Positions 2,728-9,508 of a stretch of DNA of 55,635 bases are shown here, in pieces; position 1 is the first letter of the stretch; every line of letters begins with the position of its first letter. Below the pieces are notes generated by a model. It made no database searches, had not been told where the DNA came from, and was given only the letters and a program-made list of their open reading frames with translations. The stretch covers positions 1-55,635 of the forward strand of contig JALGZR010000007.1 of the NCBI GenBank assembly GCA_025774805.1. The letters run 5' to 3'. A program made the translations under genes and the position numbers. The stretch comes from a bacterium (lineage in GTDB: Bacteria; ARS69).

Positions 2728-4413
2728 TCACCGGAGGCGGATCATCCGCCGGGTCCGCGAGCCCTCGTCGGTCTCCAACCGCATCCAATAGACGCCCGAC
2801 GCCGCGGTGCGACCCCGATCGTCGCGGCCGAACCACACGACCTCGTGCGAGCCCACGTCCGCGGGCCCCGTGAAAAGGGTCCTCACGCGCCGACCGGACA
2901 CGTCGTGGATGGAAAGCCTCACGTGCTGGGGAATCGGCAGATCGAATCGCAACGTCGTCGAACCGCGACTCGGGTTCGGCTGGGCGGGGTGGAGCTGAAG
3001 GGCGGGGGCGGAGGCCAAGATCGGCGCGTCCACGACCCTCACGGGAATCGCCAGATGGGCGATGGTGGCCACCGCGGCCTTCGTAACGTGGGTCGGGTAT
3101 TCCGTGGGATACCGCTCGATCCGGTCATCCGACGTATGGTACCAGGGGCAGAAATCGCCTCCCCACGCGTACTCTTCGATTCCGAGGATCGCCTCGTACC
3201 CCCACGACCAGAACGACGCGTGATCGGACGCTCCCAGGGGCTGGTTGACGATGATCGGTTCGAGGTCGTCAGGTAGATACTGAGCGGCCGCATCCTGCAG
3301 AATCTCTGCGAGCGGGTGGGAGACATCGTTCGTGTAGATGATCAGATCGGGAGGGGCTGGATCGGTTCCGCGGTAGGCGATCATGTCGAGGTTGACGCAA
3401 CCCATCACGTTCTCGCCTTGCCCGTGGATGTGCTCGACGTATTGCGACGATCCGACGAGACCCTGCTCCTCGCCGTTGAATGCCGCGAACTTGATGGTGC
3501 GCCGGAATCGATGCTGACTGAGCACACGTGCCGCCTCGAGAAGAGCCGCCGTCCCGCTCCCATCGTCGTCGGCGCCGGGCGCGCTGACGTACGGATACTC
3601 GCTGGTGGAGTCGAAGTGCCCCGTCAGGTATACGACCCTCGCCGGGTTCACCTCACCGGGAAGAGTGGCGATCACGTTCTTTCTCAATCCCGACTGCTCG
3701 TGCTCGAAGAACTCGACCTGCAAACCGTACGAGGCGAACACGTCGTACATCCATACCGCAGCCGCGTCATTCGCCGCCGTGAACGTGTACCGGGTCTCGA
3801 AGTCGTCGAGAGATTGCCAGACCGAGGTGTAGTTCACCTCCTCGATCTCGTTCACCATGACACCCACCTCGGGGGCGAACTCCGTGGTGAAGAGGTGGTA
3901 CCCCACTCTCTCCGCGTGTGGCACGGGCCAGGGCTTCGAAGCCCGGGTGATTCGCTGCAGTCCCTCGAGTCCCCGGGGGCCGCGAGTCTCCAAACGCGCC
4001 ATGTGTGGAGGGGCCCCGGGGGTCCACAGAAGGGTCGTGTGGCCCTTGCGATGAAGGACCTCGGCCGGGGCCTCGAATCGAGCGGTGAGGGCATCCTCGG
4101 AGAGGAAGAGATAGTAGGAGCCAATCGAGCGCATCGGGCCGATCTCTACGCACGGCCCACCCGGTCGAAGATCCGGAGGCAGGGTCACGACGGCGAAGTC
4201 CTCGTTGTGCGCGAGCAGTCGCCCTCCCGCGTGGAGCGGCTTCAAGAGAGAGGGCGAGGGTCGGTCCCAGGACACGACCGTCAGGATCCTGTCGCCGGGG
4301 CTCTCGGCCAACGTGGGGAGAGAGAGAAGAGGAAGGAGGACGAAGGGGACTCCGGCGAGAAGGGCGCGGAGGGCCCCAAGACGGCCTGCACTCCCTCGCG
4401 TATCGATCGACAT
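2728..4413 (-). CDS. secreted M28-family metallopeptidase with FlgD-like tail
   Basis: 561 residues from ATG 4413, chosen because a GGGGGAG ribosome site lies about 7 nt upstream and a signal peptide follows directly (RALLAGVPFVLLPLLSLPTLA). The middle is an M28 (aminopeptidase Y/Q-like) domain with the expected two-zinc ligands in order: His/Asp in TGHFDS, Asp in GADDDGSG, Glu-Glu in NGEEQG, Asp in NLDM, His in YHTSDD. The C-terminal 80 or so residues have the PNPSRGSTTLRFDLP linker and the SGRRVRTL...GVYWMRL FlgD-like domain. Expected role: hydrolysis of peptides outside the cytoplasm, with the tail serving export or surface attachment. An in-frame start 18 codons earlier lacks a comparable ribosome site. 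Specificity cannot be read from the sequence. Confidence 0.93.
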   Translation of the reverse strand: MSIDTRGSAGRLGALRALLAGVPFVLLPLLSLPTLAESPGDRILTVVSWDRPSPSLLKPLHAGGRLLAHNEDFAVVTLPPDLRPGGPCVEIGPMRSIGSYYLFLSEDALTARFEAPAEVLHRKGHTTLLWTPGAPPHMARLETRGPRGLEGLQRITRASKPWPVPHAERVGYHLFTTEFAPEVGVMVNEIEEVNYTSVWQSLDDFETRYTFTAANDAAAVWMYDVFASYGLQVEFFEHEQSGLRKNVIATLPGEVNPARVVYLTGHFDSTSEYPYVSAPGADDDGSGTAALLEAARVLSQHRFRRTIKFAAFNGEEQGLVGSSQYVEHIHGQGENVMGCVNLDMIAYRGTDPAPPDLIIYTNDVSHPLAEILQDAAAQYLPDDLEPIIVNQPLGASDHASFWSWGYEAILGIEEYAWGGDFCPWYHTSDDRIERYPTEYPTHVTKAAVATIAHLAIPVRVVDAPILASAPALQLHPAQPNPSRGSTTLRFDLPIPQHVRLSIHDVSGRRVRTLFTGPADVGSHEVVWFGRDDRGRTAASGVYWMRLETDEGSRTRRMIRLR

Positions 4414-4716
4414 GATGCTCCCCCTGCTTCCGGCCACGAACGGGCTACCGAATCGCTCCGATTCCACGATCTTGGACTCTCCTCCCGAAACGGCTGATTG
4501 AACAGTACCAGCTCGCAGATCGTGCTCACACCAGCAGGATCCGGATCTCTCGATCAGGAACTCCGACCCCCCCGAATGACCCTCTATGTGCTTTCGTTTC
4601 CGTTCCGCGCGGCTCCTCTCCGCAAGTCAGGGGGAGAGAATTGCGCATCCCGGGTCTGGTCGGGCCCAAGGGAATCTCGAATCCCAACCTGTTTAGAAAC
4701 AATCCTTTAACCCGGA

Positions 4717-5349: not shown

Positions 5350-5591
5350 TGCGATGACCCGGTCAACTCGCGGCGGGGAGAGAGGCCCGGTGTCCCGTTG
5401 GTCGCCGGGTCCCTCCTTTTGTTGGGATTGCGATCCGGGACCCAAGACTCCAGAATGGTCGAGCTCGGCGAGGATCGTCCTTCCCGGAGAGCCCGGGGCG
5501 GTTCAGTGGCGCATCCCCTGCACTTTCGGCGTGAGCCGAATGGAAGCAACTGACCTGCACACGCAAACCTGTGAAGGAAGGTGATGTCGCG

Positions 5592-7475
5592 ATGCCTCGA
5601 CGCAAACGAGTGTACAAAAGAAGTGTGGTTCCAGATCGACTCGACCTGCGTGACAGACCCTATCGTCCGAGCATCTCGGAGGCACCGAAGCCCAACCTCG
5701 ATTCTCTGAGCGGGATGCGGTTCGATCCCCTGGACCAGGGTGCAACGAACGCCTGTACCGGATTCGCTCTCGCCCAGGTCGTCAACTTTCTTCAACGCAC
5801 CTCGAACCGAAGGTCGCGCGCCCGGGTGTCACCGTACATGCTGTATTCGATGGCGCGGCGCTACGACGAGTTCCCAGGATCGAAGAAGGACTCGGGCTCG
5901 AGTATCAGAGGCGCGCTGAAGGGTTGGTACAGACATGGGGCTTGCAGGGATTCGCTGTGGCCGACACTCGATATGCCACCACCCCGGGAAGATCCCAAGC
6001 GAGATTGGTGGCAAGACGCTGCCAAGCGACCTCTGGGCGCATACTACCGGGTAGATACGCGTTCGGTCACGGACATGCACGTCGCTCTGAACGAAGTCGG
6101 GGTTGCGTACGCCAGTGCTGTCTGTCACAGCGGCTGGGACAAGGGGTTCACGCTGACCGCTCGCCAGAGGAGAGGATGGCAGATCACGCCCCGAGAGGCG
6201 TCTCCGAGTGACGGAGGTCACGCGTTCGTCATCTTTGGCTACACCTCGGATGGCTTCCGGATCCTGAACTCATGGGGACCGGACTGGGGCGAGGATGGAG
6301 TCGCAATCCTGAGCTACGAGGATTGGCTGGCGAATGCGATGGATTGCTGGGTGGCGCAGATGGGTGTCGTCACGGAAGAGCACAAGGACATAGCCGGGAC
6401 GCTCTCTCTGCGAAAGAAGAGGGGCAGGGTCGTGCTTGCCAGCGAGCGAACTCTCCGGAATCGGGAGATCTCTCCGTTCATCGTCAACATGGAGAACAAC
6501 GGCGAGCTGAGCACGAGCGGCGAGTTTCGCACCCAACGGTCGGATCTGGAGGCGCTCTTCAAGATCCACCTGAAGAAAGCGCGCGCGGATTGGAAGGTAA
6601 CCAAGGGACGTATCGACGTCGCTCTCTATGCCCACGGAGGATTGACCGGTGAGGACGCCGCAGCGAGCACGGCGGCCGAGTGGATCCCTGCGCTTTACGA
6701 CGCCAAGATCTTCCCGATCTTCCTCATGTGGGAGACGGATCTCATATCGACGCTCGAGAATCGCTTGGCGGATTTCGTGCATGGCGAACCACGCCGCACC
6801 GGCGGCCCGTTCGACTCTCTGCTCAAGTTCTGGAATGAACGTTTGGAGCAGGGACTGGCGGCACCCGGCTCAATGATCTGGGGGGAGATGAAACAGAACG
6901 CGCGAGCGATCAGCGAGAACGAGACAAGCGGGGGACGATTGCTCTATCAAGTGAGCCAGGAGCTGGCGGCTCTGGATCCGAAAAACGCACGACTTCACCT
7001 GATTGGCCATTCGGCGGGATCGATCGTACACTGTTACCTGATCCATGCACTGGCCCCGCTCGGATGGACGTTCCAGACCGTCAATTTCATGGCGCCGGCC
7101 GCGACGGTCGACCTCTTCAGGGGCAAGGTACTGAAGCACCTTCGTTCCGGTGTGGTGCGGAATTACCATCACTTCCAACTTCGAGACGATATCGAGCAGC
7201 AGGATCCGACATGTCGGCCGATACTCGGGTATGGAAGATCACTGCTCTATCTCGTCTCCGAGTCCTTCGAAGGCGGGCGGACAACCCCGATTCTCGGGAT
7301 GGAGAGGCACTTTGCGAAGGAACGAGCGCGCTGGGGGAAGGGACTCCCGGTCAGATCGTGGTCGGCGCCGATGGACCGGACGGAGAGTGCCACACACGGG
7401 GGCTTTGACAACGATCCGGTGACGAGGAGCACGATTCTCAAGTTGATCAAGGGGAGGCTGCGAGCGTCACGATAG
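5592..7475 (+). CDS. papain-like (C1) protease fused to an alpha/beta hydrolase
   Basis: 627 residues from ATG 5592, with AGGAAGG about 12 nt upstream; an in-frame GTG at 5571 is the alternative. The N-terminal half is a C1-type cysteine peptidase with all four expected residues: Gln49 in DQGATNAC, Cys55, His210 in GGHAFVIFGY, Asn226 in ILNSWGPDWG. The C-terminal half is an alpha/beta-hydrolase: ALYAHGGLTGEDAA (His348, oxyanion region) and LIGHSAGS with nucleophile Ser474; a late His is expected but not placed. There is no signal peptide or membrane segment, so it probably acts in the cytoplasm. The pairing of a protease with a serine hydrolase in one chain is unusual and resembles effector proteins more than housekeeping enzymes. 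Function is unknown; toxin, defence effector or maturation enzyme are all possible. It lies alone beside tRNA-Arg. Confidence 0.85.
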   Translation: MPRRKRVYKRSVVPDRLDLRDRPYRPSISEAPKPNLDSLSGMRFDPLDQGATNACTGFALAQVVNFLQRTSNRRSRARVSPYMLYSMARRYDEFPGSKKDSGSSIRGALKGWYRHGACRDSLWPTLDMPPPREDPKRDWWQDAAKRPLGAYYRVDTRSVTDMHVALNEVGVAYASAVCHSGWDKGFTLTARQRRGWQITPREASPSDGGHAFVIFGYTSDGFRILNSWGPDWGEDGVAILSYEDWLANAMDCWVAQMGVVTEEHKDIAGTLSLRKKRGRVVLASERTLRNREISPFIVNMENNGELSTSGEFRTQRSDLEALFKIHLKKARADWKVTKGRIDVALYAHGGLTGEDAAASTAAEWIPALYDAKIFPIFLMWETDLISTLENRLADFVHGEPRRTGGPFDSLLKFWNERLEQGLAAPGSMIWGEMKQNARAISENETSGGRLLYQVSQELAALDPKNARLHLIGHSAGSIVHCYLIHALAPLGWTFQTVNFMAPAATVDLFRGKVLKHLRSGVVRNYHHFQLRDDIEQQDPTCRPILGYGRSLLYLVSESFEGGRTTPILGMERHFAKERARWGKGLPVRSWSAPMDRTESATHGGFDNDPVTRSTILKLIKGRLRASR

Positions 7476-7599: not shown

Positions 7600-7621
7600 C
7601 CCTTTCCGCAAACTCTTCCGC

Positions 7622-7695
7622 GCCCCCGTAGCTCAGGTGGATAGAGCAACGGTTTCCTAAACCGTGTGCCGGGTGTTCGAGTCACCCCGGGGGCG
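7622..7695 (+). tRNA. tRNA-Arg, anticodon CCU
   Basis: A full cloverleaf can be drawn. Acceptor GCCCCCG (7622-7628) pairs with CGGGGGC (7688-7694), with discriminator G at 7695. TA linker; D stem GCTC/GAGC with loop AGGTGGATA; anticodon stem ACGGT/ACCGT with loop TTCCTAA, giving anticodon CCT (reads AGG). Five-base variable region GTGCC; T stem GGGTG/CACCC with loop TTCGAGT. CCA is not encoded. It stands alone between the protease-hydrolase gene and a convergent kinase gene, a typical position for integration of mobile DNA. Confidence 0.96.
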
Positions 7696-7807
7696 CCCCT
7701 TCTGTGCACGATGCGGATGGGGGTGCGGCCAGTCCAGGTCCACATCCGTAGCCTGATGGCTCGCAGATGTTACGAGCCTTGGGGACGGACAGGCGCCAGT
7801 GTCGGCG

Positions 7808-9508
7808 CTACTCCAGAAGCGACGCGATCACCTTCCGGAGGTTCGCTGCGTTCTTCCCATAGTCCCACAGTTTCAGCGGATTCACGAGATCGCTCTCCAC
7901 TCGAACCGAGTAGCGGTCTTGGTCGGTTGCCCGGACCTGGAACCGGATGCGTTCGCCGGCACTCTTCATGCTCATCGCGGTCCGTGCGTGAATCGACCCC
8001 TCGCTCAGATCGAGATCTGTGACGTGAGCACCGAGCTGCGAGATCGCCTGTGAACACCGCGCGAGAATCTGGGCGAAGCTTCCCTCTAGTTCGATTGCGG
8101 TCTCCTTGTGCGTTCTCGTCCGGCCCTGTGTGCGGAAACGGCGAAGGTAGACAAAGTGAGCGAGGAACCAAACCGCCCAGAACGCAGTGAAGAGAACCCA
8201 GCCAAACTGGGCTGTACCCCCTTTGGTGCGCCACACCCACCACGACGAAACAGCGCCCACCAGGGACACCATGCCGAGGAACAGCATGAACCACCAAAGC
8301 AAAGTCCATCGCGATTCGGACTCCGGGGAACGGCTGAACCGGACGAGCGCTACTCCGCGAACGGAAGTCTCCTTCTCGCGTCGGCGCTCGATCCACCGCA
8401 CCGCGGGGCTGGCTGCGCAGATGAGCAGACCTAGGAGCCCCAGCGGGATCGCCGCCTGCCAGGCGGGGTCAGCCACCATGAAGGTCAGGGCAGCAATGAC
8501 CAGTGTGGTTCCGGCCCAGAACGTCCATACGTGCGCGCTCGAACGGCGGACTCCGAGAGTCGCAAACGAGGAGTCCTCACGTCGTACCTCAAAGCGAGAT
8601 CTCGCCTCACTTGCAGGAGAGAGAACGAGCTCATCTCGAACCTCATTAGCCGTTGAACATCGGTCCTCCGGATCTTTCTCGAGCAGATGCTCGATGACCG
8701 TCGCAAGCGGCGCGGGAACCTGGGGATTGAGGTGAATGATAGGCTTCGGGGAGCCGTGCAGGATGGCCTCGAAGATGGACCCGATCGACTTGCCGGTGAA
8801 CGGCTGCCGCCCGGTCGCGGCCTCGTATAGAACCACTCCGAGCGCAAAGAGATCAGATCGTACATCCAGCTCCTCGCCTCGCACCTGCTCCGGAGACATG
8901 TACGCAACGGTTCCGACCGTGGACCCCGATTGCGTGAGCGAGCGTTCTAGCGTGGGGGAGTTCGAGAGCGCGATGGTGGAGTCGTCCTTGACCGCTCGGG
9001 ACAAGCTCTTCGCCAGTCCGAAGTCCAGCAGCTTCACCCGCCCTTTCGCCAGAGCAACCACGTTCGCGGGCTTGAGATCCCGGTGGAGAATCCCCTTCGA
9101 GTGCGCCTCCCGGAGGGCGTCCGCCAGCTGGTGTGCGACGCTCAGGAGTGCCTCCGGGTCAAGTGGCCCGTCAGCGATCACTTCGCGCAGCGTGCGGCCT
9201 TCCAGGTACTCCATCGCGAAGAAGGGGCGCCCCTCGAACGTGCCGGTCTCGAAGATCGTACAGATGTGCGGGTGATTGAGAGCCGCAATTGCCCGGGCCT
9301 CTCGAAGAAATCTCTCGCTCGCGGTTGGATCGCCGGATAGCTTCTTCGAGAGGAATTTCAGCGCGACGGTGCGGCCGAGCTTGGAGTCTTCACCTTTGTA
9401 GACGGTCCCCATTCCACCTTCGCCGAGCTTCTCGACGATTCGGAAATGGGCGACTGTGGCTCCGATAGGGTGATCGGGTGTGCTGGCGGGTCCCTCGCCT
9501 TCGACCAT
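7808..9508 (-). CDS. membrane Ser/Thr protein kinase (PknB-like) with four C-terminal membrane segments
   Basis: 566 residues. The N-terminal Hanks-type kinase domain (about 20-290) is complete: Gly loop GEGGMG 29-34, Lys51 in VALK, HRDLKPAN 142-149, DFG 162-164, and an activation segment rich in Ser/Thr ending in AYMSPEQ. After a short linker there are four hydrophobic segments (near 330-347, 352-366, 400-423, 432-452), then a roughly 90-residue soluble C-terminal domain I do not recognise. The catalytic domain and the tail are both expected in the cytoplasm. Membrane kinases usually carry a single segment and an external sensor; four segments with almost no external part is different. No clear ribosome site precedes ATG 9508. 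A 117-bp repeat element lies just upstream. Confidence 0.92.
   Translation of the reverse strand: MVEGEGPASTPDHPIGATVAHFRIVEKLGEGGMGTVYKGEDSKLGRTVALKFLSKKLSGDPTASERFLREARAIAALNHPHICTIFETGTFEGRPFFAMEYLEGRTLREVIADGPLDPEALLSVAHQLADALREAHSKGILHRDLKPANVVALAKGRVKLLDFGLAKSLSRAVKDDSTIALSNSPTLERSLTQSGSTVGTVAYMSPEQVRGEELDVRSDLFALGVVLYEAATGRQPFTGKSIGSIFEAILHGSPKPIIHLNPQVPAPLATVIEHLLEKDPEDRCSTANEVRDELVLSPASEARSRFEVRREDSSFATLGVRRSSAHVWTFWAGTTLVIAALTFMVADPAWQAAIPLGLLGLLICAASPAVRWIERRREKETSVRGVALVRFSRSPESESRWTLLWWFMLFLGMVSLVGAVSSWWVWRTKGGTAQFGWVLFTAFWAVWFLAHFVYLRRFRTQGRTRTHKETAIELEGSFAQILARCSQAISQLGAHVTDLDLSEGSIHARTAMSMKSAGERIRFQVRATDQDRYSVRVESDLVNPLKLWDYGKNAANLRKVIASLLE

Follow-up and report, generated by a model that had tools for sequence, protein, structure and literature searches.

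The stretch of DNA analyzed here (55,635 nucleotides, hereafter the window) carries a gene in which a papain-like protease is joined to an alpha/beta hydrolase, a real fusion as the preliminary description had proposed. Because the fusion is itself fused to, or adjoins, wall-cutting enzymes in several lineages, we suggest that it probably helps to take bacterial cells apart. The specific reading that we favor, at roughly even confidence, is that of a zymogen-like protease and lipid esterase dismantling bacterial cells together with wall hydrolases, with self-lysis as its first candidate setting. The features of the gene are listed in Table 1.

Table 1. Coordinates of the fusion gene, its domains and the neighboring tRNA gene in the window.
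Feature	Position	Strand	Basis or remark
CDS, papain-like protease + alpha/beta hydrolase fusion	5592..7475	+	627 aa; relatives in 78 genomes; AlphaFold2
N-terminal segment, aa 1-40, PDxxDLRD	5592..5711	+	Motif conservation; probable pro-segment
Papain (C1A) domain, ~aa 41-258	5712..6365	+	Sequence and structure match to xylellain
Papain catalytic codons	Gln49 5736-5738, Cys55 5754-5756, His210 6219-6221, Asn226 (NSWG) 6267-6269	+	Invariant
Inter-domain segment, aa 262-335	6375..6596	+	Conserved together with the hydrolase
Alpha/beta hydrolase domain, ~aa 336-620	6597..7451	+	Alignment, model, fold search
Hydrolase catalytic codons (Asp538 as candidate acid)	HGG 6633-6641, Ser474 7011-7013, Asp538 7203-7205, His602 7395-7397	+	Invariant
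tRNA-Arg (CCT)	7621..7698	+	Neighbor, judged unrelated

Its GC content by codon position (0.60/0.49/0.72) and its conservation in more than 70 genomes show the open reading frame to be coding. AAGGAAGG lies approximately 10 nt 5' of the ATG at 5592, a longer alternative start is possible at the GTG at 5571, and neither a sigma-70 promoter nor a terminator pattern was seen for the gene. Its overall GC content is 60.2%, that of the whole window 66.6%, and since the nearest genes have 62-65%, the composition of the gene tells little. The gene looks nameless because the Pfam matches of both domains (DUF676, E 0.01; Peptidase_C1, E 0.026) fall under the cut-offs. Its neighbors, all unrelated to it, encode an M28 peptidase, a Ser/Thr kinase, an O-methyltransferase and a cyclase-TPR protein. 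The M28 peptidase (2728-4467, minus strand) looks secreted and has a FlgD_ig-like tail, and the kinase (7808-9508, minus strand) is by appearance membrane-spanning in its C-terminal half. Integration at the tRNA-Arg was considered and is not indicated, because the gene lies 5' of the tRNA, whose 3' end has no repeat in the window. The protein itself, described earlier as cytoplasmic and lacking an export signal, indeed has no hydrophobic N-terminus or transmembrane segment by sequence; among 68 relatives, a lax hydropathy test of the N-terminus was passed by two, a transmembrane test by none.

Structure prediction, the check that the preliminary description had suggested, gave a confident two-domain model of the whole protein (AlphaFold2 with relatives; pLDDT 90.6, pTM 0.90). 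In a phmmer search of the PDB, residues 4-254 matched xylellain (3ois) at E 1.5e-17, a match that a profile of 54 sequences raised to E 5e-26, and structural superposition of the papain part on 3ois gave a Z of 28.5 and an rmsd of 2.2 over 235 residues. Pfam PF00112 matched 54/54 members at E up to 0.05, with the window protein under the curated cut-off. Gln49, Cys55, His210 and Asn226, which had been named as the protease active site before any relatives were aligned, carry these numbers and are invariant in all 54 aligned sequences, which come from several phyla. With this Gln-Cys-His-Asn set in a papain fold, the papain half belongs to the C1A family and is of the xylellain type. In the N-terminal PDxxDLRD motif, D15, D18 and D21 are invariant, and P14 and R20 are conserved in at least 90% of the 54 sequences. 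In sequence the segment aligns with the N-terminus of xylellain, in structure it overlays the pro-segments of procathepsins, and we infer that it occludes the protease active site, which would make the protein a zymogen. Xylellain has the protease fold, the catalytic residues and the N-terminal PD..D.RD segment in common with the window protein but is a single-domain protease, whereas the window protein adds an alpha/beta hydrolase behind the protease.

As VIA-align returned papain folds only when given the whole model, the hydrolase part was modeled (pLDDT 92.3) and searched alone. The best fold matches were to dienelactone hydrolase (Z 14.1) and phospholipase A1 (Z 13.6), with many esterases just below. 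Foldseek placed the Nir2 DDHD domain in its top row (E 2.8e-4), but with a TM of only ~0.4, and Pfam gave no DDHD match. Invariant in 54/54 sequences are H348-G349-G350 (oxyanion-type), H473, S474, G476, E535, D538, H602 and D606; Ser474, named earlier as the second active site, is thus among them, and either Asp538 or Glu535 could be the acid of the serine triad. Given the invariant GHSAGS Ser474 and His602 and fold matches with Z up to 14.1, the C-terminal half belongs to the alpha/beta hydrolase superfamily. Since many esterase types match about equally well, the substrate is not readable from the fold; for a hydrolase with this HGG oxyanion motif and GHSAGS nucleophile, acyl esters are the most likely targets, lipids being our guess.

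A genome scan gave 547 relatives, of which the best 80 loci were kept, 78 of these nearly full length. Among these best 80 loci, the fusion is present in at least 78 further genomes at ~37-60% identity, and all 78 genomes behind the kept loci matched at E up to 1e-30. Plasmids add carriers in Eleftheria, rhizobia, Microvirga and Ideonella. Within the window's own family, four other genomes gave no copy of the gene, three of them being incomplete or contaminated. No relative of the fusion was found on viral contigs, and phage records gave papain-domain matches only. The tree of the fusion mixes Pseudomonadota, Nitrospirota, Rokubacteria, Acidobacteriota and Bacteroidota, and in this quick tree the window protein pairs with a Rokubacteria sequence (L018; SH-aLRT 93). 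Because the distribution is patchy and the tree mixes phyla, the pattern is that of horizontal transfer and suggests that the gene moved between phyla. One copy, in a metagenome-assembled genome titled Bordetella parapertussis (L083), lies at the base of the Nitrotoga/Nitrospira clade, and that title may be a misassignment. Two variants were also seen: in Roseivivax and Paracoccus plasmids (L097, 4795-7671; L012, 6798-9401) a trypsin domain stands ahead of a papain-hydrolase-related region in the same open reading frame, giving a two-protease form, and in Larkinella (L074, 7221-9878; L092, 7279-9921) both species encode, on the strand of the fusion and 32-75 bp ahead of it, a secreted-looking vWA protein of ~880 aa.

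The fusion is mostly solitary. Across ~70 loci, most of which have no recognised partner, we found no conserved operon partner, tRNA included, and the gene does not belong to a metabolic operon; ABC-F (EttA) and sensor-kinase genes that appeared in the cluster list of neighbors were judged chance and lineage effects. The preliminary description, which had placed the gene alone next to a tRNA and read this as the hallmark of an effector, was right about the solitude, and the gene behaves like a mobile, accessory, effector-type one, as the patchy distribution, the tree and the caspases or wall hydrolases beside some relatives indicate, but the adjacent tRNA is incidental. It had also linked no named system to this architecture. 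NCBI names such proteins only 'C1 family peptidase', none of the PADLOC families corresponds to them and the open-access literature that we searched held no description of a papain-hydrolase fusion, but with 78 further genomes the architecture is not unique. The solitude of the gene, together with the many bacterial C1A peptidases that have no assigned role (PMC10380794), would also suit an enzyme for ordinary intracellular turnover of proteins and acyl esters in which the fusion is a convenience. We consider this the least probable of the explanations weighed here: the fusion and both active sites have been kept together across wide distances, the fusion has been joined to unrelated wall hydrolases, and it is patchy, its hydrolase profile being found in 3 of 386 genomes of a broad sample.

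One line of evidence for the lysis reading comes from peptidoglycan hydrolases at the relatives. In Pseudoxanthomonas and Lysobacter (Xanthomonadales), one open reading frame combines a muramidase (PF11860, N-acetylmuramidase, E 3.5e-62) with papain and hydrolase; in the assembly of Pseudoxanthomonas sp. NC8 (L064) the frame is broken by frame changes and a stop, and intact copies exist in sister species. A Ramlibacter frame starts with GH19 (E 7.5e-11) before papain and hydrolase, and second copies in Rhizobacter have an N-terminal GH19-like domain under the Pfam cut-off (E 0.0024). Elsewhere the wall enzyme is a separate gene: GH19 18 bp downstream of the fusion in Nitrosomonadales, Amidase_2 at L079 (24 bp downstream) and in R. 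etli (80 bp upstream), a gene for a PG-binding protein at L090 (15 bp upstream), and a CHAP/PG-binding gene beside the fusion at L043 and in S. fredii. A GH108 endolysin and a holin-like gene lie just upstream of the fusion in Ferrigenium, and a muramidase and a holin-like gene adjoin it in Pseudomonas; the holin-like calls come from one sub-threshold Pfam match and the similarity between the two loci. GTA_holin_3TM had no match in 78 genomes, but its controls were silent too. Among the 78 genomes, 9 of 12 muramidase genes and 3 of 14 GH19 genes lay in the fusion or within 2 kb of it, and 3 of 142 PG_binding_1 matches lay within 2 kb; the same held for 1 of 49 Amidase_2 matches in 40 genomes. 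Pooling the four wall families gave 7 lineages observed versus 0.27 expected (P ~2e-8), a value to be read as an order of magnitude and no clean test, because the families were chosen after being seen near the gene, and taxon and tree served to tell the lineages apart.

The wall hydrolases fused to papain-hydrolase are signal-less, which would also suit a weapon against other bacteria. Such a weapon could enter its victims through a contractile injection particle or a type VI secretion system (T6SS), or once a few producers have lysed, and would carry three warheads: the protease, the esterase and the wall hydrolase. Tail genes at some relatives fit such a role: in one Nitrosomonadales locus (L029, 11881-14448) the fusion is followed by a GH19 lysozyme, a phage tail sheath and a tail tube, in another (L020, 4466-5911) by a tail sheath alone, and in Nitrotoga visual inspection picked out a DUF4157-like (eCIS core) gene a few genes from the fusion. 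We nevertheless regard the weapon as unlikely, since the sheath occurs in one lineage only, no other tail genes are present at either locus, the fusion is solitary in most genomes and searches aimed at other families brought no PAAR, VgrG or immunity gene to light. The eCIS_core profile had no match in the window genome, but its absence there is unproven because the controls were silent too.

A second line of evidence links the hydrolase to caspases. Its profile matches stand-alone hydrolases on rhizobial plasmids (E ~1e-28 to 1e-33), and the gene after the hydrolase is a caspase by Pfam in five loci (L095, L096, L103, L104 and L106); at L105 and L094 it was called a caspase by similarity to the caspases of the other loci. 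In S. meliloti ml28 (L106) the order is hydrolase, caspase, then a pYEATS protein. In the rhizobial plasmid operons (L095, 5239-7695; L096, 5176-9451; L103, 12921-19426; L106, 7860-12492) the caspase follows the hydrolase within a few bases, several contain pYEATS and some have a lysozyme or CHAP gene upstream. A plasmid of the cyanobacterium Kovacikia minuta (L093, 5203-8187) encodes Amidase_2, hydrolase and caspase in one 994-aa protein, which the hydrolase profile matched at E 2.7e-73. With the papain fusion itself, a caspase gene lies directly upstream in two Rokubacteria, one of them carrying the sister of the window protein, and S. meliloti M162 has a diverged papain-hydrolase gene followed by a GDSL+caspase gene. 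Pairing of a caspase with an alpha/beta hydrolase was seen in relatives only, the window genome giving no caspase match. Two further caspase frames contain no window-type hydrolase: a 1355-aa open frame in Larkinella (L109, 2805-6782; G414:C7) joins Amidase_2 to a caspase, and a 453-aa open frame in Microvirga (G422:C1:2977855-2979012) joins PG_binding_1 to one.

These links could also be expected of abortive-infection anti-phage defence, in which an intracellular protease-lipase zymogen, as the papain counterpart of the caspase/hydrolase pairs, would be set off by phage. The caspases of the conflict systems of Kaur et al. are reported always to have an alpha/beta hydrolase neighbor (Kaur et al., 2020, PMC7159879), the present hydrolase has homologs that partner caspases at pYEATS-containing loci, and the gene is patchy and transferred. 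Against this, the fusion matched no PADLOC family (best E 0.039; library of 2023), defence models near the fusion loci are scattered, and no sensor, NTPase or second-messenger enzyme stands beside the window gene. Wall hydrolases are also, to our knowledge, unusual in known defence loci, and we judge defence improbable.

A cell-dismantling kit for wall, protein and lipid fits better, because unrelated wall hydrolases have been recruited repeatedly and caspases occur at the same hydrolase; where the preliminary description had suggested, among other roles, a two-hit toxin, the relatives point more specifically to lysis of the cell envelope. The protease would be held inactive by its own N-terminal segment, as in xylellain, until unmasked through self-cleavage or through a different protease, for example a caspase; proteins and membrane lipids would then come under attack at the same time. 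A peptidoglycan hydrolase, which some lineages encode within the fusion protein and others as a separate gene, would open the wall. The bacterial cell that disintegrates could be the producer itself, lysing by program or in response to phage, or else a rival that the protein reaches after its release or delivery. In this scheme we infer the enzyme activities, the zymogen control, the target and the trigger of the fusion, and the solitary window copy would work like those relatives that have a wall hydrolase. Its role is argued by homology alone, because no wall hydrolase or caspase stands beside it and its genome gave no caspase match. Counting against lysis, the window copy is partnerless, as are most of the ~70 loci, and no immunity or antitoxin gene came to light in searches aimed at other families.

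Several known systems resemble this arrangement in part. Lysis cassettes of phages and gene-transfer agents (endolysin and holin) recall the two lineages in which GH108 or a muramidase and a holin-like gene lie beside the fusion, but most fusion copies have no holin. We know of no such cassettes that normally contain a papain-hydrolase protein. The pairs of caspase and alpha/beta hydrolase likewise couple a peptidase to such a hydrolase (Kaur et al., 2020, PMC7159879). The window protein differs from them in having papain for caspase, in being fused rather than neighboring and in having none of the MoxR, vWA and VMAP core components among its gene neighbors; its hydrolase homology is to the rhizobial hydrolases that precede caspases. 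A metacaspase joined to Amidase_2 and GDSL lipase has been called 'a highly destructive weapon' (Asplund-Samuelsson et al., 2012, PMC3501461), and such proteins likewise combine protease, lipase and peptidoglycan hydrolase in one chain. The papain family, with papain in place of caspase, an alpha/beta hydrolase in place of GDSL and a mostly different wall hydrolase, appears on this comparison to be their counterpart with a different protease and lipase fold. It is possible, though somewhat doubtful, that all of this reflects a widespread, unnamed set of papain-based lysis executioners in which protease (papain, caspase, trypsin), lipid-esterase (alpha/beta hydrolase, GDSL, PLD) and wall-hydrolase modules (muramidase, GH19, amidase, CHAP) are interchangeable within one protein or operon, and in which caspase and papain both serve as trigger proteases.

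Many environmental bacteria from several phyla carry the fusion under a bland family name. Should it prove to be a lysis executioner, papain-type proteases would be linked to the job suspected for prokaryotic caspases, and the role of the bacterial caspase/hydrolase pairs would become testable with a single, self-contained protein.
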